Assembly (NCBI RefSeq): GCF_008087625.1
Contig: NZ_CP042997.1
Span: 7,440,001 to 7,504,000, forward strand
Direction of reading: 5' to 3'
Source of the DNA: Aquisphaera giovannonii
GTDB lineage: Bacteria; Planctomycetota; Planctomycetia; Isosphaerales; Isosphaeraceae
DNA length: 64,000 bases
The notes beneath the pieces are model-generated. The model was not told where the DNA came from and ran no database searches. It was given only the letters and a program-made list of their open reading frames with translations. Below are positions 10,191-49,900 of this stretch, one piece after another (the stretch's first letter is position 1; each line of letters starts with the position of its first letter). The position numbers and the translations under genes were made by a program.

Positions 10191-11078
10191 ATGAGCATCG
10201 CCGCCGCACGCGACTACCTCGATCTCGTCAAGTTCAGCCACACGGTCTTCGCCCTCCCCTTCGCCCTCTTCGGCGCGGCGCTCGCCGCGAGGACGCCCGA
10301 AGGCTGGCGGGGTCGGCCGCAAGATTGGCTCGGGATACTCCTATGCATGGCCGCCGCGCGATCCGCCGCCATGGCCTTCAATCGCCTGGCGGATCGCCAC
10401 TACGACGGCCTCAACCCGCGCACCGCGGGACGGCACCTCCCGGCCGGCAAGCTGTCGGTGCGTGCCGTAACCCTCTTCACCTTCCTGTGCTGCGCCGCCT
10501 TCGTGGCCTCGACGCTCCTTTTCCTGCCCAACCGCTGGCCGCTGGTCCTCTCGGTGCCCGTCCTGGCCTGGCTGCTGGCCTACTCGTACACGAAGCGGTT
10601 CACGAGCCTCGCCCACTTCTGGTTGGGCGCCTCCCTGAGCATGGCCCCGCTGGCCGCGTGGATCGCCCTCCGCGGCGATTTGGAGTGGCCGCCGGCCTGG
10701 CTGGCGGCTGCGGTCCTCTGCTGGGTCTCCGGCTTCGACATTCTTTACGCCTGCCAGGACGTCGACTTCGATCGGGAGATGGGCCTCAACAGCGTGCCGA
10801 GGCGGCTGGGCGTCCCCGGGGCCCTCCGGCTCGCGGCGGCCTGCCACGCCCTGATGATCGCCGCCCTGGTCGCCCTCGGCCTATCCTATCCGATGGGCGC
10901 ATTCTACTACGGCGGAGTGGCACTGGCGGCCTTGCTGCTGATCTACGAGCATGCCCTGGTCCGCCCGGAAGACCTCACTCGCGTCAACCTGGCGTTCTTC
11001 CACGTGAACGCCGTCATCAGCATGGGGTTGCTCGCCGTGGGCGTGGCTGACCTGTGGATCCACATCACCCCGGGTTGA
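10191..11078 (+). CDS. mqnP: UbiA-family prenyltransferase, probable MqnP
   Basis: A 295-residue membrane protein of the UbiA family with about eight or nine hydrophobic helices. The first Asp-rich motif reads NRLADRHYD (Asn64, Asp68, Asp72). The second reads DVDFDREMGLNSVP (about 190-203). Both bind the Mg-diphosphate of the polyprenyl donor. In genomes using the futalosine route, MqnP prenylates the naphthoic acid intermediate before decarboxylation and UbiE/MenG methylation. Assignment to menaquinone rather than ubiquinone or heme follows from the adjacent mqnE and nearby ubiE. The stop codon overlaps a candidate promoter for mqnE. Confidence 0.9.
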   Translation: MSIAAARDYLDLVKFSHTVFALPFALFGAALAARTPEGWRGRPQDWLGILLCMAAARSAAMAFNRLADRHYDGLNPRTAGRHLPAGKLSVRAVTLFTFLCCAAFVASTLLFLPNRWPLVLSVPVLAWLLAYSYTKRFTSLAHFWLGASLSMAPLAAWIALRGDLEWPPAWLAAAVLCWVSGFDILYACQDVDFDREMGLNSVPRRLGVPGALRLAAACHALMIAALVALGLSYPMGAFYYGGVALAALLLIYEHALVRPEDLTRVNLAFFHVNAVISMGLLAVGVADLWIHITPG

Positions 11079-11165: not shown

Positions 11166-12317
11166 ATGCCGACCGAAGCGAGCCGGCTGGGTGCGATCCG
11201 GGAGAAGGTCGAGGCGGGCCGGCGGCTCACCGTGGAGGATGGCCTAGCTCTGGAGGCGTCCGCCGACCTGTTCGCGATCGGCGAGATGGCGAATCTCGTC
11301 CGCGAGCGGAAGAACGGCAACCTCGCGTTCTACAACGTCAACACGCACATCAACCCGACCAACGTCTGCGTCTACACCTGCGACTTCTGCGCCTTCCGGG
11401 CCGACCTCGACGACCCGAGGGGCTACGTCATGGACCGCTCGCAGATCGTTGAGCGGGCTCGGCAGGCAAGCGAGCGGGGGGCGACGGAGCTCCACATCGT
11501 CGGCGGCCTGCACCACAAGCTGCCCTTCTCGTATTACGTGGACGTGGTCCGCTGGATCCGGGAGGCGGCGCCCGAGATCCACGTGAAGGCCTACACGGCG
11601 GTGGAGATCGAATTCTTCTCGAAGATCGCGCGGAAGCCCGTCGAGCAGATCATGCGGGAGTTGATCGACGCCGGCCTGGGCAGCCTCCCGGGCGGCGGGG
11701 CCGAGATCTTCCATCCCGAGGTCCGCGAGAAGATCTGCGGTGCGAAGGCCTCCACCGAGCGGTGGCTGGACGTACATCGGACGGCCCACCGCCTCGGCCT
11801 GCACTCGAACGCGACCATGCTCTACGGCCACATCGACGGCCCGATCCACCGCATCGATCACTTGGTTCGCCTCCGGGAATTGCAGGACGAGACGGGCGGC
11901 TTCCAGACGTTCATCCCGCTGGCATTCCATCCCGAGAATTCGGAGATGGATGACATCCCGAAGCCTTCCGGCGTGATGGACCTGAAGACCATGGCCATCA
12001 GCCGACTCATGCTGGACAATTTCCCCCACATCAAGGCCTACTGGGTCATGCTCGGGCTCAAGACCGCCCAGGTCGCCCTCTCCTTCGGCGCCGACGACAT
12101 CGACGGCACGGTCGTCCACGAGAAGATCTATCACGAGGCCGGCGCCGAGACCCCGCAGGAGATCACGACCGCGGAGATCCGCCGCCTGATCCAGGAGGCG
12201 GGGCGGGTCCCCATCGAGCGCGACACGCTCTATCGCGAGATCACCCGCGACGGTCGGTCCTGGCAGGCGGGCAGGAAGATCGATCCCTCCCGGTTGCTCC
12301 AGATCGTCCCGGCTTGA
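11166..12317 (+). CDS. mqnE: Aminofutalosine synthase MqnE (radical SAM)
   Basis: MqnE joins SAM to 3-[(1-carboxyvinyl)oxy]benzoate to form aminofutalosine, the second step of futalosine-dependent menaquinone synthesis. The 383-residue protein carries the radical-SAM Cys68-x3-Cys72-x2-Cys75 cluster (CVYTCDFC), the GGLHHKLPF substrate loop and LPGGGAEIF, which separate MqnE from the related cyclase MqnC. ATG 11166 follows a GGGGAG site 8 bases upstream. It lies 87 bases after mqnP and has its own candidate promoter. mqnA, mqnB, mqnC and mqnD are not in this window. Confidence 0.95.
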   Translation: MPTEASRLGAIREKVEAGRRLTVEDGLALEASADLFAIGEMANLVRERKNGNLAFYNVNTHINPTNVCVYTCDFCAFRADLDDPRGYVMDRSQIVERARQASERGATELHIVGGLHHKLPFSYYVDVVRWIREAAPEIHVKAYTAVEIEFFSKIARKPVEQIMRELIDAGLGSLPGGGAEIFHPEVREKICGAKASTERWLDVHRTAHRLGLHSNATMLYGHIDGPIHRIDHLVRLRELQDETGGFQTFIPLAFHPENSEMDDIPKPSGVMDLKTMAISRLMLDNFPHIKAYWVMLGLKTAQVALSFGADDIDGTVVHEKIYHEAGAETPQEITTAEIRRLIQEAGRVPIERDTLYREITRDGRSWQAGRKIDPSRLLQIVPA

Positions 12318-12913: not shown

Positions 12914-14266
12914 ATGTCGTTCCGGGGTGTCTTCATCGCCGTCGTGCTCAGCACGGCGCTCATCGTGTCGGCCTTCGTCCTCCAGATGAAGAGGCCCAGG
13001 ATCGAGGTGGACCGCGCGACTCCGGCGTTGGTGAAGGCGAGCGGCAAGTGCGCGGACTGCCACCGGCATGAGACCTCGGCCATCGTCCACGAATTCGACA
13101 TGTCGAAGCACAACGCGGCCGGGGTGAACTGCCTGGATTGCCACCAGCCTTCGAAGGGCCAGGAGCCGTTCGATCATAAGGGATTCACCATCACCAAGAA
13201 GCTCTCGGCCGCGAACTGCATCGGGTGCCACCCGGACCAGTACAGGCAATACCTCGAGAGCCGCCACGCGGCGCCCTCGTGGGCGGCAGTCGCCGGGAAG
13301 GAGGACTTCACGGCCGAGCAGGTGGCCTTCGCGGAGAAGCTTCACAAAGGCGCGGTGGACCGGCCGCCGCATGAGCTCGTGAAGGTGGAGGGCATGGCCG
13401 CCGTCAACAAGGGCTGCCGGCAGTGCCACGACATCGGCAAACCCAACAAGGTGGACGGCACGATCGGCAACTGCACGGCCTGTCACGCCCGGCACGTCTC
13501 GTCCGTTGCCCTCGCCCGCCTGCCCGAAACGTGCGGCCAGTGCCACATGGGGCCGGACCACTCGCAGCTCGAAATCTACCACGAGTCGAAGCACGGCGTG
13601 CTCTTCAACGCCCAGCGCAACAGGATGAACCTCGATGCCCCCCCCAGCAAGCTGACCACGGCGGACATGCCCGTCCCCACCTGCGCGACGTGTCACATGA
13701 GCGGCCTCGAGGGGACGGAGACCGACAAGGTCCGGACCACTCACAACCCGTCGGAGCGGCTCTCGTATTTCCTCTTCGCCGCCGTCTCCGACAAGCGCCC
13801 CCACGCCGAGGAGGGCGAGCGGAACATGCGTCAGGTCTGCACCAAGTGCCACACGAATCCCCGGATCCTCGCCTTCTACAAGGACGCCCAGAGGGTCGTG
13901 CTCAGCACCAACAAGATCGTCAACGAGGCCAAGGCGGTCGTCGACGGGCTCCGGAAGGACAAGCTTCTCACGGAGACGCCGTTCGACGAGGCGATCGAGT
14001 ACGTCTACTTCGACCTCTGGCATTACGGCGGGCGGACCGCGAAGCATGGCGCCTACATGGGCGGGGCGGATTTCGTCCAGTGGCACGGCTATTACGAGAT
14101 CGTCAGCAAGCTCGCCGAGTTGAAGCACCAGGCCGAGGACATCCGCAAAGGGCACAAGCCCCTGCCGGCGGGCGCGAAGTCCGAGGCCGCGAAGGCCGCC
14201 GGCCTCGACGCGATCACTCCGGCCCTGCCCGCGGGAGGCGTCCATGCGACGGCTGCTCCTCGCTGA
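12914..14266 (+). CDS. Octaheme c-type cytochrome, HAO-like family
   Basis: A 450-residue exported cytochrome with a hydrophobic N-terminal anchor/signal (about residues 6-24). It has exactly eight CxxCH heme sites, at about 46, 73, 102, 168, 187, 207, 257 and 309. Heme number, spacing and the C-terminal segment with HGAYMGG...WHGYYEI fit the hydroxylamine oxidoreductase/octaheme superfamily. That family includes oxidative HAO and reductive enzymes acting on nitrite or hydroxylamine. I could not establish whether the Tyr that cross-links heme P460 in oxidative HAO is present, so direction and substrate are open. The next gene starts 23 bases before this one ends, so the two are translationally coupled and probably form one complex. 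Confidence 0.88.
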   Translation: MSFRGVFIAVVLSTALIVSAFVLQMKRPRIEVDRATPALVKASGKCADCHRHETSAIVHEFDMSKHNAAGVNCLDCHQPSKGQEPFDHKGFTITKKLSAANCIGCHPDQYRQYLESRHAAPSWAAVAGKEDFTAEQVAFAEKLHKGAVDRPPHELVKVEGMAAVNKGCRQCHDIGKPNKVDGTIGNCTACHARHVSSVALARLPETCGQCHMGPDHSQLEIYHESKHGVLFNAQRNRMNLDAPPSKLTTADMPVPTCATCHMSGLEGTETDKVRTTHNPSERLSYFLFAAVSDKRPHAEEGERNMRQVCTKCHTNPRILAFYKDAQRVVLSTNKIVNEAKAVVDGLRKDKLLTETPFDEAIEYVYFDLWHYGGRTAKHGAYMGGADFVQWHGYYEIVSKLAELKHQAEDIRKGHKPLPAGAKSEAAKAAGLDAITPALPAGGVHATAAPR

Positions 14267-15134
14267 CGCCCTCCTGGCGAACCCGCTCCTCTGGGTCGAG
14301 CTGTTCCTGCTCTCGAATGTCGCCTTCATCGGCGTCGATATCGTCCTGGCGCACGCCACGAACAACTTCGAGCATCAGACCGAGTGGATCCCCGTCGCCT
14401 TCTCCATCGGCGGGACGGTCGTCCTGCTGCTCGGGATGGTCCTCGGCGGCATCCTCCCGGCCGTGCCGGGCGTGCCCGATGCGGTCCCCATCGCGCCGCA
14501 GAAGCAGGTGGCCCGGTGGCTCGGCTTGCTGGTCGGGCTCGGCTCGGTCGTGGTGGGCGTGGCGGGGTTGATCTTCCACCTGGAGGGGGATTTCTTCCAG
14601 GAGCAGCCGCTCAAGAATCTGGTCTACACGGCGCCCTTCATCGCGCCGCTTGCCTACGCGGGGATCGGGATGGTGATCATCCTGGACCGGATGGTGGACT
14701 CGCGGACCATGGAGTGGGCCCGCTGGCTGCTCCTCCTGGCGGCCGGCGGGTTCCTGGGCAACTTCGTCCTCAGCCTCGCGGATCACGCCCAGAACGGCTT
14801 CTTCTACCCGACGGAGTGGGTCGGCGTCGTGGCCGGGGCCATCGCCGCGAGCTTCCTGATCGCCGCGGTGATCGTACCGGAGAGCCGCTCGCTCCTGGTC
14901 ATGAACGCGGCCATCATGGTCATCCAGGTCGTCGTCGGCATCATGGGGTTCCTGCTCCACCTGAACGGGAATCTGCACGCCCCGGGGGCGACGCTGCGCG
15001 ACCGGTTCATCTTCGGCGCCCCGGTCTTCGCCCCCCTGCTCTTCGCGGACCTCGCTGGACTGGGCTTGCTGGGGCTCTGGGCGCAGTACCGAGTCCTGGA
15101 GCGTCCCCGGGAGACGGGGCGGGTGGTATGCTGA
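14244..15134 (+). CDS. Duplicated multi-pass membrane partner of the octaheme cytochrome
   Basis: A 296-residue protein of about eight transmembrane helices. The two halves are visibly related. HATNNF..QTEW (His37, Trp48) aligns with HAQNGFFYPTEW (His181, Trp192). FHLEGD (His112) aligns with LHLNGN (His239). TAPFIAPL (about 129-136) aligns with GAPVFAPL (about 258-265). Conserved His residues near helix ends could bind heme or act at a quinone site. There is no CxxCH, so this is not an NrfH/NapC-type quinol dehydrogenase. The overlap with the cytochrome gene suggests an electron-transfer or anchoring partner. I do not recognise a named family. Confidence 0.75.
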   Translation: MRRLLLADALLANPLLWVELFLLSNVAFIGVDIVLAHATNNFEHQTEWIPVAFSIGGTVVLLLGMVLGGILPAVPGVPDAVPIAPQKQVARWLGLLVGLGSVVVGVAGLIFHLEGDFFQEQPLKNLVYTAPFIAPLAYAGIGMVIILDRMVDSRTMEWARWLLLLAAGGFLGNFVLSLADHAQNGFFYPTEWVGVVAGAIAASFLIAAVIVPESRSLLVMNAAIMVIQVVVGIMGFLLHLNGNLHAPGATLRDRFIFGAPVFAPLLFADLAGLGLLGLWAQYRVLERPRETGRVVC

Positions 15135-15183: not shown

Positions 15184-17034
15184 ATGGCGGGGCGAGACTG
15201 GCTGCTGATCCAGGAACTGCTGGAGCGAGGCGAGGAGGAATTCGTCGATCGGCTCCGGGGCTTCCACGACGCGGAGGCATTGGCCGGTTTTGCCGAGCGA
15301 TGGTACTCCAATGCTTCGACACGCTCGCGCGAGCTCCTTCTGGCGTACCTTGACCGGCCTCTCAATGCCTATCGGCATGAGCCGCTCGTGAAGCGGCTCT
15401 TCAAGCTGGCGGAGAAAGCTCGTGACGACGAGGTCATGGCGCGATTCCTGGTCGCGTTCGATCGGTCGGTACGCCGGGTTGAGATGGACCGTGTCCGCAA
15501 CCGATATCGCAGCTTCAGGACCGAGGAGGAATTCGAGCGTCAGAAGGCCGCGTGGCAGGACGAGGGCGCCGATCACCTTTACGGGGGTATTTCCGCACGC
15601 ACCGCCTATCAGCCCGACGTCTATCAACTCCAGGGTGTGTGGCGGGAGCACGTCCTGGCGGTGCCGGCCGGCGGGACGATGCCCCGCGCCGAGTGGGGCA
15701 GAGCGGCCGTGCATCGCGGAAAGCTGGACCGCTTCCGCCTTTTTTCGGTCTCCACCCGGCGCTACCTCCGTCGCCGTGCCTGGCGTTATTTCCGACGGAT
15801 CGGGAAGACGGAATGGTCGCGATACGTCGCCGGCATCTCGGGGGCTCTTGCGATCTACGAGGACGCGGATGTGAACGACGGACTGGCGCTCCTCGACAAC
15901 TGGGGCCTGGTCCATGCCCTCTTCCATCACAGCGACGTGCTCCAGGCCAACCCGCGGGGCTGGCTCCCTCGCGAGGGCCGGTCGCTCTCGGAGTTGAAGC
16001 CGGCCCCGGCCTTCCCCGAGGCCTGGGAGAACGAATCGGGCAGGCTGCTCGACCTGCTGCGGCAGGCGCGATGCCGCCCGGTCCGCCGGTGGGCCATGGG
16101 GATGCTCGACCGAAATCCGGATGCGGTTCTGGCCCAGGGGCTCGAGGCGTTGATCGGTTTCCTGGACAGCCTCGACGCCAACGTCATCGCCTGGGCCGCC
16201 GGGATCCTCGAGCGGTCCGGCGCCGCCGCGGGCCTCGAGCCCGCCCAATGGCTGGCGCTCGCTCGCAAGGCCGGGCCCGACGCGTTGCCCGTCCTCGCGG
16301 GCCTGCTGCGTCGCTTCCTCGAGCCGTCGCGGCTGACGACGGACGAGGCCGCGGAGCTGGCGTCCAGCCATTCGCTGCCCGTGGCACGATATGGTTACGA
16401 CGCCCTCAACGCGAGGGCGATCACTCCGGGTGACATACCCGCGCTCTTGCCCGTCCTCGATGCGGCCTGCGGGCCGCTCAGGCCCGAGCTGCTGGACTGG
16501 CTGGGCACGACGCTCCGGGCCCTCGGATACGACGTCGATCGCATCCTGCTGCTGCTCGACAGCCGCCACGCCGATGCCCGCGCCGCGGGCCTGGCCTGGT
16601 TCCGCTCCGCGCCGGAGGCCGGCAACGATATCGAGCTCTGGAGGCGGCTGGCCGAGTCCCCGCACGACGACGTGAGGCTGGCACTCGCCCAGGTGCTGGA
16701 CCGGCACGCCGCGGAGGGCGGCGTTGACGGCCGGGCCACGGACATCAGCCGTGCACTCGACGCCGACCGCCTGCGATTCCTGTGGGCCGCGATCCTGCTG
16801 AACATCCACCGCGGCGGTCGTGCCAAGCCGGGGGTCGTCGAGCAGGTCGCGACGCGGCTCGGGAGACATCCGGGCGACGCGCCGCAGCTCCTCCCCCTGC
16901 TCGCGATCGCGCTGCGGTCGTTGAGGACCACGGAGCGGAATGCCGCGCTCGTCGCCGTGGTGAAACTGACCGAGAAATCGCCGGCCGCGGCGGCGGCCGT
17001 CGAGGCGGCTTTCCCCGAGTTGAAGTGGGGGTGA
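15184..17034 (+). CDS. ARM/HEAT-like repeat protein of a retron-type system
   Basis: A 616-residue, predominantly alpha-helical soluble protein with no signal peptide or membrane helix. The N-terminal about 200 residues are charged and Arg-rich. From about residue 250 it is a chain of paired helices of 30-40 residues (LDSLDANVIAWAAGILE, SPHDDVRLALAQVLDRHA), typical of ARM/HEAT solenoids. The ATG has a GGAGG-containing site. It is the first gene of a three-gene set with a SWIM protein and a retron reverse transcriptase. As I recall the retron classification, RT + ARM + WH-SWIM is the type XIII composition; I cannot check this here. Its role (sensor, scaffold or effector) is unknown. Confidence 0.8.
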   Translation: MAGRDWLLIQELLERGEEEFVDRLRGFHDAEALAGFAERWYSNASTRSRELLLAYLDRPLNAYRHEPLVKRLFKLAEKARDDEVMARFLVAFDRSVRRVEMDRVRNRYRSFRTEEEFERQKAAWQDEGADHLYGGISARTAYQPDVYQLQGVWREHVLAVPAGGTMPRAEWGRAAVHRGKLDRFRLFSVSTRRYLRRRAWRYFRRIGKTEWSRYVAGISGALAIYEDADVNDGLALLDNWGLVHALFHHSDVLQANPRGWLPREGRSLSELKPAPAFPEAWENESGRLLDLLRQARCRPVRRWAMGMLDRNPDAVLAQGLEALIGFLDSLDANVIAWAAGILERSGAAAGLEPAQWLALARKAGPDALPVLAGLLRRFLEPSRLTTDEAAELASSHSLPVARYGYDALNARAITPGDIPALLPVLDAACGPLRPELLDWLGTTLRALGYDVDRILLLLDSRHADARAAGLAWFRSAPEAGNDIELWRRLAESPHDDVRLALAQVLDRHAAEGGVDGRATDISRALDADRLRFLWAAILLNIHRGGRAKPGVVEQVATRLGRHPGDAPQLLPLLAIALRSLRTTERNAALVAVVKLTEKSPAAAAAVEAAFPELKWG

Positions 17035-17040
17035 GGCTGT

Positions 17041-17240
17041 GCGATAATCGCCGCCCTCGATCGATCCCGAGGGTGGCCGGGCCGGAGCCCGAGACCATCT
17101 TGCCGCGGCGATCCGCCGCGGTCGAACGTGACCCGGAGAATGCTTCCCCAGCGCCGTTGTTCTTTTCGGCAACAGGGGCTCCCTGCAGGCCGAGCTGAGT
17201 CGACAGGTCCCTGCCTGCAGGGAGCCCCTGTTGCCTTGGT
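17041..17240 (+). ncRNA. Candidate retron msr-msd non-coding RNA
   Basis: The 286-base gap between the ARM and SWIM genes is packed with hairpins. CCCTCG/CGAGGG pair at 17054-17059 and 17068-17073. CCGCGGCG/CGCCGCGG pair at 17103-17110 and 17114-17121 with a 3-base loop. A perfect 23-bp stem follows at 17168-17190 with 17213-17235. Two short stem-loops followed by one long hairpin is the layout of a retron msr-msd transcript. I could not find a convincing a1/a2 complementary pair or branching guanosine, so the ends are approximate. The long stem lacks a T tract, which argues against a simple terminator. Confidence 0.6.
17168..17235. repeat. Perfect 23-bp inverted repeat (putative msd stem)
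   Basis: The arms at 17168-17190 and 17213-17235 are exact reverse complements, beginning GGCAACAGGGGCTCCC. The 22-base loop runs from 17191 to 17212. It is intergenic, within the retron-like operon, and is the only perfect inverted repeat of this length I noticed in the window. Confidence 0.95.
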
Positions 17241-17320
17241 GAACGACGCTGGTCGGCGCCTCGAAGTCGGGGCCGGCCCGTCCTCCCCCGGGATCGAAGA
17301 GAATCGAGGGAATCGTCTCC

Positions 17321-19021
17321 ATGAAGCTGACCCTCGCCTACCGCGGCCAGAGCCGCGTCGCGACGAGCCCGGCAGGCCTGGCCGTGGCCCTCGCCCCCAA
17401 CCTCCGCCGCGATCGGGTGAGCTTCGACGCGAACCTCCGCGAGCCGGTCCTGTTCCGCGAGTACGCCGGGGCCCTGCACGACGTGGTCGTCAGCGATCTC
17501 CGCTACAAGCCCCGCGACAAAGCGGCCTACCGGGGTTTCGCCGCGGAGCGGGCACGTCGCGAGGCTTCCATTCGGCAGTCCGCGATCAAGCAGGCCAGGT
17601 CCGCGATCGAGGGCAACCTCCCCGAGCTGCTGGAGCCCATGCCGCCCGGCCTGGAGAGGCGGTTCCAGGGCCTTCGCGCGAAATACTGGAAGGCCCGGCA
17701 GCAATACTCCGACTACCTTTGCGCCCACGATCCGGAGCTCTGGCGGCTGCTCGTACCTTGCGACCCGGTCGTCACGGTGGCCGACGATTGCCTCTTCTTC
17801 GAGGGCTTCTCCGCGGACGAGAGCAGTTATGGCTGCCTGACGATCGACCGCCACGCGTTCGCCGACGAGCGCGACGTGGCGCGCGGCACGACGAACGTCG
17901 ATTACTCCTCGTCGCTCTACGAGCATTTCAATGCGATGCGGAGCTATCGCCAGACTCGGTTCCTCGTCGATCCGACGGGGTTCGAGGTCAGGAACGAAGG
18001 TGCCGCGGATTACCGCGAGGAAAAAATCGACCTGCCGCCGAGCTGGCTCCGGGGCTTCCTCCAGTTGCAGTCGGCGATGACACTCCCCTCGCGGCGTGTC
18101 CCTATCGGGCGGGAAGGGCTCTATAACATCCTCGCGTACCTGAAGCGTCACCACGCCTCCAAAAGCCCGCGGGCCCTCCGCTTCGAGCTGGAGCCCGGCC
18201 GGCCCCCGGCCGTGACGTTGGAGCCCTGGATGATCCGCGTCCAGGCCGGCGCGACCCCGTACGAAGGCCTCAACGCGGAGACGATCCGCGTGTGGGGCCG
18301 GGACCGGTTGCGGCTCCTCGCCCGGCTCTTGCCGGTGATGGACGCCGCCGAGGTCCACCTGCTCGGAACCGGCCTGCCCAGCTTCTGGAGCCTCCGCGCC
18401 GGGCCGCTCCGTTTCGTGCTTGGGCTATCCGGATGGACGGCCAACGACTGGTCGGGTGGCTCGGCGATCGACCAGATCGCGCCGCCGGTCGAGCCCAGGT
18501 CCGAGACGATCATTGGCCTGGCCAGGGCTTTCCAGTTGGAGCCGGCCGTTTCGCTGGACCGACTGCGGCAGCTCACCGGGGCGTCGGCCGGCGAAGTCGT
18601 CGCGGGACTGAATCGGCTCGCCATGCTCGGTCAGGTGATGCACGACCTGACGGCAAAAGTCTATCGATGGCGGCAGGTCATGCCGGTGACCCTCTCGGCC
18701 GAGGTCGTCGGGCCCGAGCATCCGGAGACCGAGGCGGCCCGACAGTTCGTGGCCGGGAGGCTGGTGAAGCTGAAGCGGAATGAATTACGTGGCGACGGGC
18801 TGCGCGTCCTGGAGGGCAAGGCTCCGGGCGCGGAGTGTTCCCTCGTCCTCGACCTCGACGGGAAGATCCTGCGCGGGAAATGCTCCTGCTCATATTTCTT
18901 CACCGGCGGCCTGAGGCGCGGGCCTTGCCGCCATCTCCAGGCCCTCCGCGCGGCCGCGACGGCCGCTTCATCGCCGAGGACTACGAACGACGCCTGGCTC
19001 GCCGCCCTCGGGGAGCGCTGA
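17321..19021 (+). CDS. SWIM zinc-finger protein of the retron-type system
   Basis: A 566-residue protein ending in a SWIM zinc finger, Cys521-x-Cys523-x12-Cys536-x-His538 (GKCSCS...PCRH). SWIM domains bind zinc and are used for nucleic-acid or protein contacts. Before it, about residues 400-450 (PPVEPRSETIIGLAR, RLRQLTGASAGEVVAGLNRLAMLGQV) resemble a winged helix, so the C-terminus reads as WH-SWIM. The first about 380 residues match nothing I know. The start is ATG 17321, with the candidate ncRNA directly upstream. The RT gene begins 7 bases after its stop, so the two are almost certainly co-translated. Confidence 0.82.
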   Translation: MKLTLAYRGQSRVATSPAGLAVALAPNLRRDRVSFDANLREPVLFREYAGALHDVVVSDLRYKPRDKAAYRGFAAERARREASIRQSAIKQARSAIEGNLPELLEPMPPGLERRFQGLRAKYWKARQQYSDYLCAHDPELWRLLVPCDPVVTVADDCLFFEGFSADESSYGCLTIDRHAFADERDVARGTTNVDYSSSLYEHFNAMRSYRQTRFLVDPTGFEVRNEGAADYREEKIDLPPSWLRGFLQLQSAMTLPSRRVPIGREGLYNILAYLKRHHASKSPRALRFELEPGRPPAVTLEPWMIRVQAGATPYEGLNAETIRVWGRDRLRLLARLLPVMDAAEVHLLGTGLPSFWSLRAGPLRFVLGLSGWTANDWSGGSAIDQIAPPVEPRSETIIGLARAFQLEPAVSLDRLRQLTGASAGEVVAGLNRLAMLGQVMHDLTAKVYRWRQVMPVTLSAEVVGPEHPETEAARQFVAGRLVKLKRNELRGDGLRVLEGKAPGAECSLVLDLDGKILRGKCSCSYFFTGGLRRGPCRHLQALRAAATAASSPRTTNDAWLAALGER

Positions 19022-19028
19022 GGATTCC

Positions 19029-20639
19029 ATGAACGTCTTCCGCCGCCTGTTCGGCTGGCTGCTCGGCCGCAGATTGAAGCCCGCGCCGTCGTTGCCGGCC
19101 TCACGCCCCGCCGCGCCTGGTTCGCCGCAATCGCCCATGACCGTCGCACCGACCCCGGCCGAGGTGGTCGCGAAGAAAGGCCGCTCATATGGCCTGGACG
19201 CGGGCGATTACCTGCCGATCAGTCGCGAGGAGATCAAGGAAGCCGCGAGAGGGCGTTCGCTGTTCGCTAACGCCTGGTTCGGCCGTCGCGACCGCATCCC
19301 TCCCGCGGACGACCCGCGTACGGCCACGATCGACCGGGCGATGGCCACGCAGGGCTTCCTCTCCCCGGAGGAACTCGCCGAGATCCACGCCGTCGGCGAG
19401 GAGATGGAGCGACTCCGACCGACCGCCGAACACGTCGGCCACCAGGCCGCCCTCGCCGGCGTGGCGGCGGTCGAGGCCGATCGCGCCGAGCGGGCGCGAA
19501 TCAAGGCTCAGAGAAAGGCTGAAGCCGCGGAACGCAAGCGGCTCCGCGCCGAGGCGATCGCCCTGCGAAGGCGAGAGGATATCGTGTTCCTGGGCCGCAA
19601 GGTCTCCGCCCGGCTCGGCGAGCGGGCCAGTCGAGTGGACGACCTCCAGCGAGCCGGGCTGCCCGTTTTGTCCACACCGGCCGAGCTGGCCCTCGCCATG
19701 CGCGTCTCGATCCCTCGGCTGCGATGGCTCGCCTTCCACGCCGAGGTCGCGACGCGGGTCCACTACGTGCAATTCCGCGTCCCCAAGAAGTCCGGCGGCG
19801 AGCGGGTCCTCAGCGCTCCGCGTTCATCGCTCCGCCGAGTGCAGCGGTGGATCCTCGACCAGGTCTTGAAGAACATCCCCGCCGGGCCGCACGCGCACGG
19901 CTTCGTCGCCGGGCGGAGCATCCTGACCAATGCTACGCCCCACGCCGGCAAGGCCGTGGTGGTGAACCTGGACCTGGAAGATTTCTTCCCGAGCATCGGC
20001 TTCCCACGCGTGCGGAAGGTTTTCGAGCAAGCCGGCTACTCCGGAGCCGTCTCGACGATCCTCGCCCTGCTCTGCACCGAATGCCCGCGGAAGACCGTGA
20101 CCTACCAAGGCGAGACCCTCCACGTCGCAACCGGCCCGCGCGGCCTCCCGCAGGGCGCCTGCACGAGCCCGGTACTGTCCAATCATGTCGCGATCCGGCT
20201 CGACCGCCGCCTCGCTGGCGTGGCGACGAAGCTGGGATTCGCCTACACGCGATACGCGGACGACCTGACGTTCTCCGGCCCGTCCGAGGTGGACGCGAAG
20301 GTCGGCTACCTGCTGGCGAAAGTCCGGCACATCGCGCAGGAAGAGGGTTTCGCGATCAACGCGAAGAAGACCCGCGTCCTGCGCCGCAACGCGCGTCAGG
20401 AAGTGACCGGCCTCGTCGTCAACGACCGCCCCGGCGTCCGCCGCGACGAGATCCGCCGCCTCCGCGCCATCCTCCACCGGGCCCGCACGGAAGGTCTCGC
20501 CAGCCAGAACCGCGAGGGCCGTCCCGACTTCCGGGCCTGGCTCCTCGGCAAGATTGCGTTCGTCCGCATGGCCCGGCCCGAGGTCGGCGAACGCCTCCTC
20601 GCCGAGTTCCACGAGATCGATCGCGGCAGATCCGCGTGA
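19029..20639 (+). CDS. Retron-type reverse transcriptase
   Basis: A 536-residue reverse transcriptase. RT blocks in order: PKKSGGERVL (motif 1), LDLEDFFPSI (motif A), LPQGACTSP (motif B) and YTRYADDLTFSG (catalytic YADD at about 409-412). The retron-specific motifs are both present: NAxxH as NATPH (301-305) and VTG (459-461). No maturase, endonuclease or protease domain is attached. A 200-residue basic, Ala/Arg-rich N-terminal extension is unusual for a retron RT of typically 300-400 residues. It would make msDNA from the adjacent ncRNA. Retrons of known function are anti-phage toxin-antitoxin systems, so defence is the likely role. The WD40 kinase is convergent 17 bases downstream. Confidence 0.92.
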   Translation: MNVFRRLFGWLLGRRLKPAPSLPASRPAAPGSPQSPMTVAPTPAEVVAKKGRSYGLDAGDYLPISREEIKEAARGRSLFANAWFGRRDRIPPADDPRTATIDRAMATQGFLSPEELAEIHAVGEEMERLRPTAEHVGHQAALAGVAAVEADRAERARIKAQRKAEAAERKRLRAEAIALRRREDIVFLGRKVSARLGERASRVDDLQRAGLPVLSTPAELALAMRVSIPRLRWLAFHAEVATRVHYVQFRVPKKSGGERVLSAPRSSLRRVQRWILDQVLKNIPAGPHAHGFVAGRSILTNATPHAGKAVVVNLDLEDFFPSIGFPRVRKVFEQAGYSGAVSTILALLCTECPRKTVTYQGETLHVATGPRGLPQGACTSPVLSNHVAIRLDRRLAGVATKLGFAYTRYADDLTFSGPSEVDAKVGYLLAKVRHIAQEEGFAINAKKTRVLRRNARQEVTGLVVNDRPGVRRDEIRRLRAILHRARTEGLASQNREGRPDFRAWLLGKIAFVRMARPEVGERLLAEFHEIDRGRSA

Positions 20640-35373: not shown

Positions 35374-38300
35374 TCACGCGCCCGGCGTAGGCCCGACTTC
35401 CTCCGTCATGCTCGCGGCCGAAGGATGGTCCTCCGGGCGGCCGTTCCCCTCGCCATGAGCGACCCGGTCGCCATCGACCCCCGCGGCCGACTCGGCCGGG
35501 ACGGGGCGTGACCGGAACTGCTCGGTGACCTGGTCGAGCCACGTCGGATCGGGCAGGCCGTAAGGGCGGAACTTCTCGAGTTTGTTCTCCTCCTCGCTGA
35601 AGAAGAGGGCACGGTTGGGGCCCAGTTTCCCGGCGGCGGGCGAATCGATGAGCGAGCTGCTGTCATTCGCGCTCATCTGGAAGAGGACGCGGAGTTCGAA
35701 CTCGCGAAGTCCCGTCCGGTCGAACGTGCGGTTCAGGTTGTTCACGCTGTCGCACCAGACCACCGTGTGCACCCCGACAGCCGGGCCATCCTTGAGGATG
35801 GTGCCGAAGGACTTGGAGGGCGACGCCGACTTGTCCTCGCCGAAGCTCGACGAGAACCCGTAGTCGTCGTCGCCCTTGCGGAGGTCCCGGAAGCGCTGGA
35901 TGTCGTAGATGAAGAGGTAGATGGGCGACAGGCCCTCGGCGTCCACGTCGCGGCGGCGCTCGATCTCCGCGGCGACCTCCCCCATCACGGCAGGCAGCTC
36001 TCGGGCCGAGACGTTCTTGGCGTCGTGCGGCAAGAGCTGCGCGAGCTTGCCGAGCCGGCCGGAGAGCGAGGAATCGACGGGACTGCCGTCCAGGAGGTAG
36101 AACTTGATGCCGTCCTTGCGGCGGGGCGGGTGCTGGGCCGCGATGCTGACGGCGGCCATCAGGAACATGGCGAGGGCGGCCTCGTCCGCCTGGCCGATGA
36201 TCAGCAGGTTGCTCCCGCTCTGGGGCCGGAAGACCACGGCGGTCGGGTCCTTGATGGCGATCGCATCCCCGAGCCAGGCGGACTCGTAGCGTGGGGGCTC
36301 GGGCCAGGTCGCTGCGTCGAGGAGCGGGTTGAGGAGCGGGTTCTTGCTGGCGATGGCCGGCAGGTTGCCTTCGAAGACGATGGGCGTCGCGGGGCGTCGG
36401 TGACGCGCCTTGGCGAGCCGCTGGATTTGCTCGAGGTAGGCCTCCCGCTGGTCGTCGGAGAGCCAGACGACCTGGAAGAGGTTGTTGCCCTCGATCAGGC
36501 CGTTGGCGTCGTTGTAGATGGCCTCGCCCGGGCGGGTGAGGAGCCGGGCGGCCGTGTTGTCCTCGGAGAGGATCAGGTGCGCGTCCGCCTCCGAGCACTG
36601 GAGCGCCACGCGCACCGCCATCTGGCCGAGCGTCGCGCGGGCCAGCGAGTAGGCCCCGCCGAGGGTCTGGGATCCCAGGATCACGTGCATGCCGAAGGCC
36701 CGCCCCTGCCGGACCAGGCGGTCGAGCAGCAGGGAGACTTCCTGGGAGATCTTGTCGTCCTCGACGAAGAACTCCTGGAACTCGTCCACGATGAACAGGA
36801 TGCGCGGCATCGGGATGTCGGAGCGGGCGTCGCGGAAGCCCCGGATGTCCTGCACGCCGGTGTCGCGGAACAGGTCGCCGCGCCGCTTCAGCTCGAGGTC
36901 CAGGCGCTGGAGCACGCTCAGGCCGAACTCGCGTTCGCTCTCCACGGCGATGACCTTCGCGTGCGGCAGCTCGAGCGACGCGTAGACCTTGAACTCGACG
37001 CCCTTCTTGAAGTCGATCAGGTACAGTTCGACGTCATCCGGGCTGTACCGCAGCGCGGCGTTGGTGATCAGGGCGTGGAGCAGGGTGGACTTGCCCGAGC
37101 CGGTCTTGCCGGCGATGAGGGCGTGCTGGCTGGTCCCCTTGCCCAGGGCCATGGATTGGAGCTTCGTCGCGCCGGCCCGGCCGAGGGGCACGTCCACGCC
37201 GCCCCGGCTATCCGAAGCCCAGTAGGCCTCCGGCGGCGGGGCGATGAAGTCGAACGGTACCTCGACGCGGTTGGCGTCGCGGGCCTTCTCGCCGACGACG
37301 TGAAGGATCTGCGAGAACGTTCCCGGGTCGGGGGGGGCGTCGAGCTGGAGCGGGAACCGACCGAAGTTCGAATCCCTCCAACCCAGCTTCCCATCCTTCC
37401 AGCTCACGTTCACGCAGTTGGCCTCCACCTCCTTCATGTTGCAGCCGGCGGGCACCTGGGCCCGCGGGTCCATCGAGATGAGGGCGTACACACCGCAGCG
37501 TGCGCCCGTGCTCACGATGCTGGCCAGCCGCCTCGCGGCCGACTCGTTGAACGCGGCGGGGAAGTTCGCCGCGACCAGGACGCGGAACGGCTCGGCGACT
37601 TCCCCCGCGTAGGCGTTGTACTCCTCGATCGTCTCGAACTCGTTCCGAAGATATTTCTGGATCACGTTCTCCATGTGCTGCTGGAGGTCCGTGAGCCGCT
37701 GCTCGATGTGCGGCGTCTCGGTCCAGATCCGGCTGGTCACCAGGAGCTCGTGGTAGTCCGCCAGGTGCATGAACGCCGCGAAGTTCTCGCCGAGGCCGAC
37801 GGGGTCGAAGATCGTGAACCGGACCTTGCCCGGCGGGACCGAGGTGAGGAACCTCAGCATCAGGGCCTGGAGCAGGCGGACGGACTCGTACTTGCCCGAG
37901 TCCGGGGCCTTGATGAGCACCGACGATCGGATCGGGAACGGGATGAACGCGGGGAGCTCCAGGTGCGTCGGCCCCGCGTCCTTGAGCCTAGGGTCTGTGG
38001 GCACGCCCCTGGGGAAGTCGGAGAGGTCGATCGTGAAGCGTCCGAACGGCAGCGCGGGGGGCACCTCCTTCGGGGGCGTCCATTCCGCGACCGGGACCTT
38101 CTCCCAGTCCATGAATCGCCGCTTCGATTCTTCGTTCACCTCGCCGGCCAGGCGGCCGGCCGCGGCAAGGCCGTCGCTCCACTTGCGGACCAGGTTGGCC
38201 CACGCCTCTTCGTAGAGACGGGTCGTCTCCGCCTTCGCCTTCCGGAATGCGTCCTGGAGCTGGGCCGAGTCGGCCTCGTAGGCCTCGTCCATCGCCTTGA

Positions 38301-39462
38301 GCCGCGGCGGGTAGTGGCCGTCGGCCGCCTTCATGTCCGCGTCGCGCTTCGCCGCGACGGCGTCGAGCCGTGCCGGGAACGAGGTATCGGCGTCGGCCTT
38401 CTCGCGCTGGTACCGCGCCTCGGCGTCCTGGCTGCGCTGCTGGGCGGTGGCTCGGGACTTGTTGACGTCGCGCTCCCGGTTCTCCTCCGCCTCGCGCATC
38501 TTCCGCTCGTAGTCGTTCTTCACCCACTCCTTCGTCTGCTCGAGGAGGCGTCCTGCGTCGTCGACCGCGTGCTGGAGCGCGAAGTAGTGCCTGGCCAGCC
38601 GGGGACGCACCACCTTCTTCAGGCCGATGTAGGAGCCGATGCCCGCAACCAACGCCGCCGCCACGCCGACGACGCCGCCCACGATCCAGCCCGCCTGGAG
38701 CCCGAGCCCGACGCCAGCGAGGATGCCCAGGAGGAGGAAGGGCCAGAAGAAGTTCTGCGGCCGGAGGAAGCTCGCGAGTCCCATCTTCTCGACCGTCAGC
38801 AGCTCCTCGTCGGCGGCCTTGATGGCGTCCTGGAGCGTCGTCAGCTTGGTCGACTCGCCGGGATCGGTGGCGTTGACGTCCGCCGCCCCCGGGGCCGTTG
38901 AAGGCCCGCCCGCGGCGATCCCCGATGCCGAGGCTGGCGGGGTGGCCGCCGGAGGCTCCGGCCCCGCGAGCTTACGATAGCGATCCAGGATCGGGATCGC
39001 GGCGCCCTGCACGGCCTCGAAGTCGGCGCGCGATTGCGCCAGGGCTTCCTCGTCCGCCTTGCGGGTCTTCTTGGCCCCGTCCCGGGCCGCCTCGTACATC
39101 GCCAGGGCCTGCCAGCCGGACTCTTCCATGGCCTTCTTGGCGCGGGCCCGCTCGTTCTTCAGTCGTGACTCGATGGCGGCGAGGGCCTGCTCGTACTCGG
39201 CCTTGATCGCCTGGGTCTCCCGGTCCGCGGCCTTGCCGATCCCATCCCGGGCCTTATTGTACTGCGCCTCGAGTTCGGACCGCTCCGCCTTGTAGCGCGA
39301 GGTCCGCTTCTGGGCGGAGGCGCGATACTCCTGCTCCTCACGCTCCCGCCGGCGCTGGAAGACCTGCTCGGTCTCGGACTCCTCCTTGGACCTGGCGGCG
39401 ATCAGCGCCTCCAGGCCATTGAGGGCGTCGATCTCTTTCCGGACGAGAGGTGACTCGGGCAT
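35374..39462 (-). CDS. FtsK/SpoIIIE-type ATPase, EccC-like, of a T7SS-like module
   Basis: A 1,362-residue membrane ATPase. Residues about 1-160 are highly charged coiled coil. Two transmembrane helices lie at about 233-275 (FFWPFLLLGILAGVGLGL...GVVGVAAALVAGIG), followed by a second long coiled coil. Three FtsK-like domains follow. The first has a degenerate P-loop (KAPDSGKYES, about 515). The second is intact, with GKTGSGKS near 787 and Walker B LFIVDEFQEFF near 890. The third is degenerate (IIGQADEAALA, near 1085). A multi-domain FtsK ATPase with WXG100 genes in the same operon is the hallmark of type VII (ESX/Ess) secretion. It differs from EccC/EssC in its coiled-coil N-terminus. It is last in the four-gene operon. 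Confidence 0.88.
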   Translation of the reverse strand: MPESPLVRKEIDALNGLEALIAARSKEESETEQVFQRRREREEQEYRASAQKRTSRYKAERSELEAQYNKARDGIGKAADRETQAIKAEYEQALAAIESRLKNERARAKKAMEESGWQALAMYEAARDGAKKTRKADEEALAQSRADFEAVQGAAIPILDRYRKLAGPEPPAATPPASASGIAAGGPSTAPGAADVNATDPGESTKLTTLQDAIKAADEELLTVEKMGLASFLRPQNFFWPFLLLGILAGVGLGLQAGWIVGGVVGVAAALVAGIGSYIGLKKVVRPRLARHYFALQHAVDDAGRLLEQTKEWVKNDYERKMREAEENRERDVNKSRATAQQRSQDAEARYQREKADADTSFPARLDAVAAKRDADMKAADGHYPPRLKAMDEAYEADSAQLQDAFRKAKAETTRLYEEAWANLVRKWSDGLAAAGRLAGEVNEESKRRFMDWEKVPVAEWTPPKEVPPALPFGRFTIDLSDFPRGVPTDPRLKDAGPTHLELPAFIPFPIRSSVLIKAPDSGKYESVRLLQALMLRFLTSVPPGKVRFTIFDPVGLGENFAAFMHLADYHELLVTSRIWTETPHIEQRLTDLQQHMENVIQKYLRNEFETIEEYNAYAGEVAEPFRVLVAANFPAAFNESAARRLASIVSTGARCGVYALISMDPRAQVPAGCNMKEVEANCVNVSWKDGKLGWRDSNFGRFPLQLDAPPDPGTFSQILHVVGEKARDANRVEVPFDFIAPPPEAYWASDSRGGVDVPLGRAGATKLQSMALGKGTSQHALIAGKTGSGKSTLLHALITNAALRYSPDDVELYLIDFKKGVEFKVYASLELPHAKVIAVESEREFGLSVLQRLDLELKRRGDLFRDTGVQDIRGFRDARSDIPMPRILFIVDEFQEFFVEDDKISQEVSLLLDRLVRQGRAFGMHVILGSQTLGGAYSLARATLGQMAVRVALQCSEADAHLILSEDNTAARLLTRPGEAIYNDANGLIEGNNLFQVVWLSDDQREAYLEQIQRLAKARHRRPATPIVFEGNLPAIASKNPLLNPLLDAATWPEPPRYESAWLGDAIAIKDPTAVVFRPQSGSNLLIIGQADEAALAMFLMAAVSIAAQHPPRRKDGIKFYLLDGSPVDSSLSGRLGKLAQLLPHDAKNVSARELPAVMGEVAAEIERRRDVDAEGLSPIYLFIYDIQRFRDLRKGDDDYGFSSSFGEDKSASPSKSFGTILKDGPAVGVHTVVWCDSVNNLNRTFDRTGLREFELRVLFQMSANDSSSLIDSPAAGKLGPNRALFFSEEENKLEKFRPYGLPDPTWLDQVTEQFRSRPVPAESAAGVDGDRVAHGEGNGRPEDHPSAASMTEEVGPTPGA

Positions 39463-46888: not shown

Positions 46889-46987
46889 ACGGGGCGGACT
46901 GCTTACCATGGGGGTTCTTCCGCGGACCGCCGTCGCCCCCCGGATGCCTTACCCCGATCGCCCGCGCCGTTGGAAAGGGCTAGTGAA

Positions 46988-49900
46988 TTGACTCAGGCCG
47001 AATCCCCGCAACCAGTTCCGGTGGCCATCATCGGAATGGGCTGCCTGTTCCCGAAGGCCGACGACCTGGAGCACTTCTGGTCCAACATCCGCGGGCGGCT
47101 CGACGCCATCACCGAGGTACCCCCCACACATTGGCGGCCGGAGGACTACTGGGACGCGGATCCGAAGGCGGCGGACCGCACCTACGCGCGGAGGGGCGGA
47201 TTCCTGACGCCCGTGGACTTCCCCCTGCTCGACTTCGGGATGAACCCCCACGCTCTGGAGGCGACCGACACCACCCAGCTCCTCGGCCTGCTCGTCGCCC
47301 GCCGGGCGCTCGAGGACGCGGGCTATGGGGCGGGCCGGCCGCTCGACCGGGACAGGGTGAGCGTGATCCTGGGCGTGACCGGCACTTTGGAGCTCGTCAT
47401 CCCCCTGGGCGCCCGGCTCGGCCACCCGATCTGGCGGCGGGCGTTGCGGGACGCCGGGGTGGACGAGGCGACGGCGGGGGAGGTCGTCCGGCGGATCTCG
47501 GGCTCCTACCCGGACTGGCAGGAGAACTCGTTCCCGGGCCTCCTGGGGAACGTCGCGGCCGGCCGGATCGCCAACAAGCTGGACCTGGGCGGCACGAACT
47601 GCGTCGTGGACGCCGCCTGCGCCAGCTCCCTGGGCGCCGTCAACCTCGCCCTCCTGGAGCTGGCCTCCGGCCGGTGCGACGTCGCCCTGTCGGGCGGGCT
47701 GGACACCTTTAATGATATTTTCATGTACATGTGCTTCAGCAAGACGCCGGCGCTGTCGCCGACGGGCGACGCCCGGCCGTTCGACGCGGCGTCGGACGGC
47801 ACGATCCTGGGCGAGGGCCTGGGGATCCTCGTGCTGAAGCGGCTCGAGGACGCCAGGAGGGATGGTGACCGGATCTACGCGGTGATCCGCTCCATGGGGA
47901 CCTCCAGCGATGGCAAGGGGCAGGCCGTCTACGCGCCGAGTGCCGCCGGGCAGGTGAAGGCCCTGAAGCAGGCGTACGAGCTGGCGGGAATCTCGCCGGC
48001 GTCGATCGAGCTGGTCGAGGCGCACGGCACGGGCACGAAGGTCGGCGACGCCATCGAGCTGGAGGCACTGGAGCAGGTCTTCCGGGGCGCCCGTGATACG
48101 GGCAGCTGGTGCGCTCTCGGCTCGGTGAAGTCCCAGGTGGGCCACACGAAGGCGGCCGCCGGGGCGGCGGGGCTCATCAAGGCGGCCATGGCCCTGCACC
48201 GCAAGGTCCTCCCCCCGACGATCAAGGTTAAGCAGCCGATCGGCCCCCTGGCATCGGGCAGTTCGCCGTTCTACCTGAACGCGGAGCCCCGGCCCTGGCT
48301 CGCCGCGAAGGATGGGGAGCCTCGTCGCGCGGCGGTCAGCGCCTTCGGCTTCGGCGGCAGCAACTACCACTGCGTGCTCGAGGAGGCCGATCCCGCGCCG
48401 GCCGACATCGACTGGGGCGGGGACGTCCAGATCCTGGCCTACTCGGCCGGGGACGCGGGATCGCTCGTCGCCGGCCTCCCCCGATGGTCAGGAGACGTCC
48501 CCTGGGGCGAGGTCCGCGCCGAGGGGGCCCGTTCGCGCGGGAGCTTCCGCGTGGAAGATCCGCACCGAGTCGTCCTCGTCGCGACCCGCGGGGGCACGAG
48601 CCCGTCGCGGCTCGTCGAGGTCGCGGCGACCGGACTGAACGAGCGTGGCCGTCGCTCCGCCTCGAGCCTCGTGCCTTCTCGCGAGGTGTACTACGGCAGG
48701 GGGCCGGCCCCCGGGGGCATCGCGGTCCTGTTTCCCGGCCAGGGGGCCCAGTACGTCGGCATGTTCCGCGACCTGGCCTGCCGGTTCCCGAATATGCAGG
48801 ACTCGCTCGCTCTCTGGGACCGCATGTCGGGCGGCGTCGGCCCGCGCATCGCCGATGCGATCTACCCCCCGTCCGCCTTCCACGACGATGTTCGACGCGC
48901 CCAGCAGGAGGCCCTCCGGGACACGCGGTTGGCCCAGCCGGCGATCGGTGCGGTCTCGGCGGGCCTGCTCCACATCCTGCAGGACTTCGGCCTCAGCCCG
49001 TCGTTCGCAGCGGGGCACAGCTTCGGAGAGCTCACCGCGCTCCACGCGTCCGGCCGGATCGACATGGAGGCGCTCGCGAAGCTCTCGTGGCGGCGCGGGG
49101 CGCTCATGGCGGACTGTGCCGATCAGAGCGACCCCGGTTCGATGCTCGCGGTCCTGGCCCCCGCCGAGGAAGTTGCCGGGCTGATCCGCAGGCACGGGCT
49201 GGATGTCGTGATCGCCAATCGGAACGCCCCGAGGCAGTGTGTCCTCTCCGGGTCCGGGACCGAAATCGATCGAGCGGCCCGTTTGTGCGACGAGGCCCGG
49301 CTGACTGCGCGCCGGCTGGCGGTGTCCGCGGCCTTCCATAGCGGTTTCGTGGCCCGCGCCGAGGGCGTGTTCCGCGAGGACCTAGCGTCGGTGCCGTTCA
49401 CGCCGGCGACGATGCCGGTCTTCGCGAACTCCACCGGCCGGCCGTACCCCGACGGCGCCGAGGAGTCGCGCGAGCTCCTGGCTGGGCAGCTCTCTCGCCC
49501 CGTGGAGTTCGTCGAGCTGATCCGGGCGATGCATCGCGAAGGGGCGCGGGCCTTCCTGGAGGTCGGGCCCGACGCCAAGCTGACGGGACTGGTCCGGATG
49601 ATCCTCGAGGAGGAGGACCACCTCGCCATCGCGACGGATCAGGGCCGCGGCGATGGGCCGCATGGCAATCTCGTGGACCTGGCCGCGGCGCTCGCCAACC
49701 TGGCGGCGATCGGCTATCCTCTCACGCTCACCGCATGGGACGGCGGGTACGAACCCCCGGCGTCCTCGACGTCTCGCCGAGGGCCGACCGTGAAGGTCTG
49801 CGGGGCGAATCCCATGCCCCGGATCGATACCCCGGCCCCGATGTCGAGGACGATTCCCGCGGCGCCAGCCCCCAAGCCCTTGCCCACCCCGGAGGCGAAA

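Follow-up and report, generated by a model that had tools for sequence, protein, structure and literature searches.

What does a membrane protein of no known family do when its gene overlaps that of an octaheme cytochrome? Nitrogen-cycle multiheme reductases are grouped according to their hemes, though it is the way in which they draw electrons from the membrane that decides what a cell can do with them. The question is raised by positions 12914-15134 of a 64,000-nucleotide stretch of Aquisphaera giovannonii DNA (the window; contig NZ_CP042997.1), where two genes lie on the + strand with an overlap of 23 nt, the octaheme cytochrome gene first and the membrane-protein gene, whose product we call MEM, second (Table 1). 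An RBS-like GAGGAG is found upstream of the octaheme gene. The host genome is of 10.5 Mb and is near that of Aquisphaera insulae, whose membrane protein is 82% identical. A first-pass annotation had already described the two genes as overlapping, as they are, and suggested that MEM could be a new quinone-linked or heme-bearing anchor for an HAO-like octaheme enzyme of the nitrogen cycle.

Table 1. Positions of the features discussed in the text (window positions unless a locus is named)
Feature	Position	Strand	Remarks
HAO/IhOCC-type octaheme cytochrome c, 450 aa	12914..14266	+	N-terminal TM anchor at about residues 3-26, then periplasmic octaheme domain; PF13447 E 5.5e-27; 4qo5 E 6.4e-48; AlphaFold2 pLDDT 85
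Heme 4 motif, C168-x-x-C171-H172	13415..13429	+	Fourth CxxCH; aligned to HAO structures; predicted catalytic high-spin heme (HAO order), role by homology
D215-H216	13556..13561	+	Aligned with the HAO active-site Asp-His pair; invariant in 45/45 relatives
H391	14084..14086	+	Aligned with the P460 cross-link Tyr of oxidative HAO/HDH; His in 79/79; Tyr column in anammox sequences
Duplicated 8-TM membrane protein (MEM), 296 aa, proposed diheme-b/quinol module	14244..15134	+	AlphaFold2 pLDDT 91.9; no Pfam, NCBIfam or PDB match
MEM unit 1, residues 10-151, with H37 and H112	14271..14696	+	Half versus half, hhalign E 1e-14
MEM unit 2, residues 154-292, with H181 and H239	14703..15119	+	Half versus half, hhalign E 1e-14
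MEM homologues in GMC clusters, annotated hypothetical protein	L152:5374-6318(-); L153:4806-5759(+); L154:5460-6395(-); L151:5427-6380(-); L156-L160		

The octaheme cytochrome

The first-pass annotation counted eight CxxCH sites in the cytochrome, and all of them (C46, C73, C102, C168, C187, C207, C257 and C309) are invariant in 45 aligned relatives. The protein matches PF13447 in Pfam, and a PDB search with a profile of the 45 relatives gives IhOCC (4qo5) as its closest solved relative, followed by HAOs at about 1e-27 and then by anammox HAO-like proteins. The AlphaFold2 model agrees with this order: VIA aligns it to 4qo5 with Z 25.4 and rmsd 2.6 over 350 residues at 29% identity, and to HAO structures with Z 19.7-21.4 over 327-331 residues; the scores for NrfA and ONR are far lower (Z 7-9). 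The CxxCK active-site motif of ONR and NrfA does not occur in the cytochrome, where all eight motifs are CxxCH, and its match to PF02335 falls below the cut-off of that family (20.4 vs 24.1). The cytochrome itself is thus of a known type. IhOCC of Ignicoccus hospitalis is likewise a membrane-associated octaheme protein of HAO type, from which the window cytochrome differs in being shorter, in having its own hydrophobic N-terminal membrane anchor and in having a dedicated membrane partner.

The D215-H216 pair aligns with the DH of the HAO chains. The P460 cross-link Tyr, which the first-pass annotation proposed to look for by alignment with HAO and reductive octaheme proteins, is missing. Its column holds His391 when the cytochrome is aligned by MAFFT with anammox HAO/HDH types, or Gln389 in a pairwise HMMER alignment, and among 79 relatives of the cytochrome both residues are invariant and never Tyr. 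A His at this site is associated with reductive octaheme enzymes, the Tyr being present in oxidative HAO/HDH (PMC12758564). The missing Tyr thus argues for the reductive type and against an oxidative HAO, and the cytochrome is likely to be a reductive octaheme enzyme in which the catalytic Asp-His is kept. Of the HAO-like nitrogen-cycle enzyme first suggested, the HAO-type fold and the Asp-His stand, and the assignment shifts from HAO to a probable reductase.

Compared with HAO, HAOr and HDH of Nitrosomonas and anammox bacteria, the window cytochrome has the eight hemes, the HAO fold (Z about 20) and the active-site Asp-His in common, whereas it lacks the P460 Tyr of oxidative HAO/HDH. HAOr is also without this Tyr, but its gene is accompanied by that of another redox partner, kustc0457 (PMC12485887).

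The membrane protein and its wider family

MEM is very hydrophobic and has no CxxCH. The first-pass annotation read it as a repeat of two four-helix units with matching His (37/181 and 112/239) and with TEW and AP..APL motifs in both halves, and every part of this description is retained. The AlphaFold2 model of the 296 residues consists of eight long helices arranged 4+4, the alignments of the two halves are homologous by hhalign (prob 98.4; Table 1), both motifs recur in both halves, and the four His correspond between the units and are invariant in 84 homologues. The motif HxxNxF(x3-5)E occurs twice in 81 of these 84, and GxxGxxxH at least twice in 80. Each odd-numbered helix (1, 3, 5, 7) carries one conserved His near its periplasmic end. 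The mean number of Lys+Arg per connection is 3.1, 2.0, 1.5, 1.4 and 1.2 for the inside parts and 0.6, 1.1, 0.4 and 0.9 for the outside loops; as every inside part exceeds any outside loop, the N and C ends are placed inside and the four His on the periplasmic side.

No Pfam or NCBIfam family scored above noise, either with MEM alone or via 60 relatives, and neither MEM nor its profile matched a PDB sequence. Two weak hits were rejected: a calcium sensor, which was the sole PDB sequence row for MEM (E 0.44, as expected by chance), and a RegB match in NCBIfam (E 0.0043, far below the cut-off). Foldseek with the MEM model against the PDB gave no significant match (best E 0.36). The tetraheme c motifs of NrfH/NapC/CymA are absent from MEM, and these families were not matched in Pfam or NCBIfam. 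The cytochrome b pattern of two His per ligand helix (HX13-14H) does not occur either, since MEM has one conserved His per odd-numbered helix. The early judgement that the partner is neither NrfH/NapC nor a recognisable cytochrome is consequently upheld, and MEM has not fallen into a known unrelated family. A search of open full-text papers yielded no earlier description of the pair. As far as the searched libraries and the open literature show, MEM would represent an undescribed family.

Distant homologues of MEM were found by a search of Acidobacteriota. One type is stand-alone, and another belongs to a conserved gene cluster for a TPP enzyme, an enolase-superfamily enzyme, the MEM homologue, gluconate-2-dehydrogenase subunit 3 and a GMC oxidoreductase. 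The cluster type is found in Granulicella, Burkholderia, Caballeronia, Komagataeibacter, Lichenicola and Nitrobacter, and in Deinococcus as a single four-helix unit. The GMC-linked type aligns with the family of the window MEM by hhalign with prob 99.0 and E 7e-18 over 238 columns; its own profile has no match among PDB sequences. Clusters with GMC and subunit 3 genes and a MEM homologue were found at 10 loci, nine of which are without any multiheme ORF; the only such ORF lies on the opposite strand, at the margin of the Nitrobacter locus, and in none of the 10 is a cytochrome c subunit gene located beside the GMC/subunit 3 genes. The characterised gluconate/2-ketogluconate dehydrogenases consist of a GMC flavoprotein, a small subunit and a triheme cytochrome c as third subunit (PMC9692623). 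The families of the flavoprotein and the small subunit are common to both systems; the clusters found here differ in carrying a MEM homologue and no adjoining cytochrome c subunit gene. The association of the MEM family with a second class of enzymes is new.

In an alignment of 25 members from the three subfamilies, the first His, the G and H of GxxxH and the P, A and P of PxxAP are invariant in each unit (25/25), as is P50, and the H, GxxxH and PxxAP of each MEM unit are on the periplasmic side. A superfamily can be defined by internal duplication with H, GxxxH and PxxAP in both units, and the window MEM has all of these. The Deinococcus protein (Deinococcus sp. D7000, L155:4971-5444(+)) is an unduplicated unit of 157 aa, and its gene adjoins a long one of 865 aa annotated as gluconate-2-dehydrogenase subunit 3. 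The third, stand-alone branch (L149:5233-6240(-) and L150:5161-6165(-)) has as its gene neighbours an Rce1-like protease and an RND-type transporter of large size.

Pairing and the proposed quinol-dehydrogenase position

Whether MEM always accompanies octaheme genes was a point left by the first-pass annotation. At 80/80 MEM loci in the genome collection an octaheme gene is located directly upstream on the same strand, and nearly all of the pairs overlap or are within 10 nt. The 8 of 199 Planctomycetota genomes which have MEM are exactly the 8 with an octaheme of at least 532 bits, the next octaheme scoring 332. Both genes are present in the same 11 of 297 Acidobacteriota genomes, among which there is a divergent pair (L147, L148) with MEM at about 130 bits and the octaheme at about 450 bits. 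The pairing is thus conserved in the sampled genomes, and is far above chance. In a tree of 59 octahemes the MEM-linked ones form one clade (support 100/100). The hosts, MAGs and isolates by label, are Planctomycetota, Poribacteria, Acidobacteria, Verrucomicrobia, Marinimicrobia, Gemmatimonadetes, Zixibacteria, Deltaproteobacteria and others, so that by MAG labels the octaheme enzyme of the pair occurs in about ten bacterial phyla. Outside the pair only lineage-specific genes recur, for which reason we reject a generally conserved neighbourhood. It should be mentioned that the genome of locus L035 has a broken second MEM copy (G219, contig C39:7268-7599 (-)).

The next-nearest planctomycete octahemes adjoin genes for cytochrome b or NrfD-like proteins instead of MEM (L106-L109, L119-L127 and L111, L112, L116, L117). 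Cytochrome b and NrfD are established quinone-reacting membrane proteins, and it seems that the octahemes have exchanged quinone modules on more than one occasion. That MEM replaces the partner of the sister octahemes argues, by analogy, that it occupies the quinol-dehydrogenase slot and does the same job as cytochrome b and NrfD, the oxidation of quinol. MEM then probably feeds the octaheme enzyme electrons from the membrane.

Comparable arrangements exist. Rieske/cytochrome b complexes with octaheme subunits have been described in anammox bacteria (PMC12954380), and these, like the NrfD-linked octahemes found here, combine an octaheme HAO-like protein with a quinone-reacting membrane subunit. 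MEM belongs to a different, duplicated four-helix family with an hhalign prob below 1 to either protein, namely 0.1 for cytochrome b (5 sequences) and 0.3 with E 0.2 for the NrfD-like neighbours of the sister octahemes (only 3 sequences). NrfHA, NrfABCD and CymA (PMC12285233) pair a periplasmic multiheme reductase with a membrane quinol dehydrogenase, as we propose for this pair, but MEM has no heme c motifs and no profile relation to NrfD, and the octaheme is without CxxCK. In the gene pairs of Fe(II) oxidisers (PMC5566968) a periplasmic multiheme cytochrome is likewise followed by an uncharacterised inner-membrane protein with conserved His; that protein has five helices and two HX13H motifs, whereas MEM has eight helices and one His per odd-numbered helix.

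Proposed function and its alternatives

The explanation we prefer, at a probability of roughly one half, is that the pair forms a two-subunit redox enzyme of the inner membrane. MEM would consist of two fused four-helix units with both ends inside, each unit with a bis-His heme b close to the periplasmic face (H37/H112 in unit 1, H181/H239 in unit 2) and oxidising (mena)quinol there. The electrons would pass to the membrane-anchored octaheme cytochrome, at whose heme 4 a small nitrogen oxide would be reduced, be it nitrite, NO or hydroxylamine. As all proposed ligands are on the periplasmic side, the quinol oxidation step would probably be electroneutral, like that of NrfHA. We infer the hemes from the two His and the neighbouring Gly of each bundle, a pattern which is kept regardless of the partner enzyme and is as expected of a bis-His heme b. 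Against the proposal of heme b, Foldseek matches the fold of MEM to no known b-type cytochrome. The anchor first suggested is supported by its place in the slot of quinol modules and by a His/Gly pattern preserved across partners; its heme and quinol roles stay predictions.

The substrate is suggested by the neighbours of the pair. In Verrucomicrobiota the pair lies beside a quinol-type NO reductase (qNOR), a NapH-like protein, a Crp/Fnr regulator and a YgbA-type gene (L063, L079, L083), or beside a hybrid cluster protein, Hcp (L062, L082, L096). A second copy at L146 shares a cluster with genes for NirK, DUF2249, DGC and Crp, at the planctomycete locus L020 an NO reductase is two genes away, and in the Acidobacteria locus L092 NnrS adjoins the pair. 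Such neighbours are seen at a minority of the loci, mostly in Verrucomicrobiota; at most loci, that of the window included, the pair is alone. NrfA proper was found in 0/28 host genomes and NirK above the cut-off in 2/28. NarG is above the cut-off in only 3/28, so that nitrite would need another source. The A. giovannonii genome encodes a 68%-identical NO reductase elsewhere and has no NirK or NarG over the cut-off and no full-length NrfA; some weak PF02335 rows in this genome were rejected as NrfA, as they cover short heme stretches of other multiheme proteins. Together, neighbours and host gene content favour nitrite, NO or hydroxylamine as the substrate. The pair occurs in Planctomycetota, Poribacteria, Acidobacteriota and Verrucomicrobiota, groups whose handling of nitrite and NO is poorly known and in whose sampled genomes NrfA and mostly NirK are missing.

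The same data leave some room for a reductase with another substrate, such as a sulfur oxyanion, a metal or an organic N-oxide; the N-oxide genes near the pair in Verrucomicrobiota would then be incidental. The physiological role of IhOCC, the nearest solved relative, is not settled (PMC4429474), most loci have no nitrogen genes beside the pair, and the hosts are mostly without NarG and NirK. We nevertheless think another substrate rather unlikely, since the Asp-His of an HAO-type active site is preserved, N-oxide neighbours of several kinds turn up repeatedly, and HAOr, a characterised relative without the Tyr, reduces nitrite (as cited in PMC12485887).

An unlikely explanation is also that MEM is a heme-free quinone-binding subunit like NrfD/PsrC, in which the His, Gly and PxxAP make up quinone sites from which a heme of the octaheme protein receives electrons directly. 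Eight TM helices in two four-helix bundles are the plan of NrfD/PsrC as well, and NrfD-like proteins fill the neighbouring gene slot in the sister octahemes. At the level of fold, Foldseek gave no confident PDB match for the MEM model, and the 50 VIA rows do not include NrfD/PsrC. However, the hhalign prob to NrfD is as low as given above, and Pfam has no NrfD match for MEM. Two invariant His per unit at matched depth, with a Gly four residues before one of them, fit a heme ligand pair better.

Binding of a non-heme metal (iron, copper or zinc) by the two His of each unit, as in a membrane version of a ferritin-like double bundle, appears improbable. It is suggested by the best structural neighbour of MEM, the soluble double four-helix protein 3dby, which we take to belong to the DUF2935 family and which stands out in VIA (Z 15.4, rmsd 3.9, 229 residues) with the other rows at background; in the octaheme-linked subfamily E47/E191 and D32/D180 are conserved as well. 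In Pfam, neither MEM nor the profile of its relatives matches DUF2935. Helical bundles, however, get middling Z values from their arrangement alone, and in the 25-member alignment the carboxylates are not kept in the GMC-linked or stand-alone subfamilies while the four His are.

It is very unlikely that MEM carries no electrons and is a mere anchor or a factor for assembly or heme handling. The family searches identify no cofactor in MEM, but the octaheme protein already has its own anchor, MEM is kept as strictly as the enzyme and takes the place of quinol modules, and its homologues stand in for the cytochrome subunit beside GMC dehydrogenases, enzymes for which heme assembly is not required. 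Operation in the oxidative direction, with hydroxylamine or a similar compound oxidised and quinone reduced, is highly unlikely: an HAO-type fold and a membrane partner suited to quinone chemistry either way would permit it, but the P460 Tyr of oxidative HAO/HDH is absent in all relatives (rule as in PMC12758564).

The relatives of MEM in the wider family appear to do the same electron feeding for unrelated sugar-type (GMC) dehydrogenases. We tentatively propose, with somewhat less than even confidence, an undescribed superfamily of four-helix units with two invariant His which would link the quinone pool to unrelated periplasmic enzymes, octahemes as well as GMC flavodehydrogenases without a cytochrome c subunit. 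If true, quinone-linked membrane modules would gain one more general class in addition to the cytochrome b, NrfD, NapC/NrfH and NarI/FdnI types. For the 'hypothetical protein' genes that adjoin GMC dehydrogenase genes in Burkholderia, Nitrobacter and acetic acid bacteria, the wider family also suggests a role that can be tested.

Some other features of the window should be recorded. Directly upstream of the pair there are two genes of the menaquinone (futalosine) pathway, a UbiA/MqnP-like prenyltransferase gene (10191-11078 (+)) and mqnE (11166-12317 (+)). A UbiA-type gene is also upstream in A. insulae (L018), but as this arrangement was not seen elsewhere, the two genes were rejected as operon context and are not used as evidence. 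Downstream follow a 616-aa protein with no family assigned (15184-17034), a protein with a SWIM-like zinc motif (17321-19021) and a reverse transcriptase with a YADD motif and a long N-terminal extension (19029-20639 (+)); in A. insulae (L018) the pair is followed by genes matching those of 15184-20639 in size and start. Further away the window encodes an FtsK/SpoIIIE-like ATPase with a long coiled N-terminal part (35374-39462 (-)) and two giant polyketide/PUFA-synthase-like proteins (46970-53824 and 53434-60231 (+)), the first of which has three nearly identical carrier-domain repeats.
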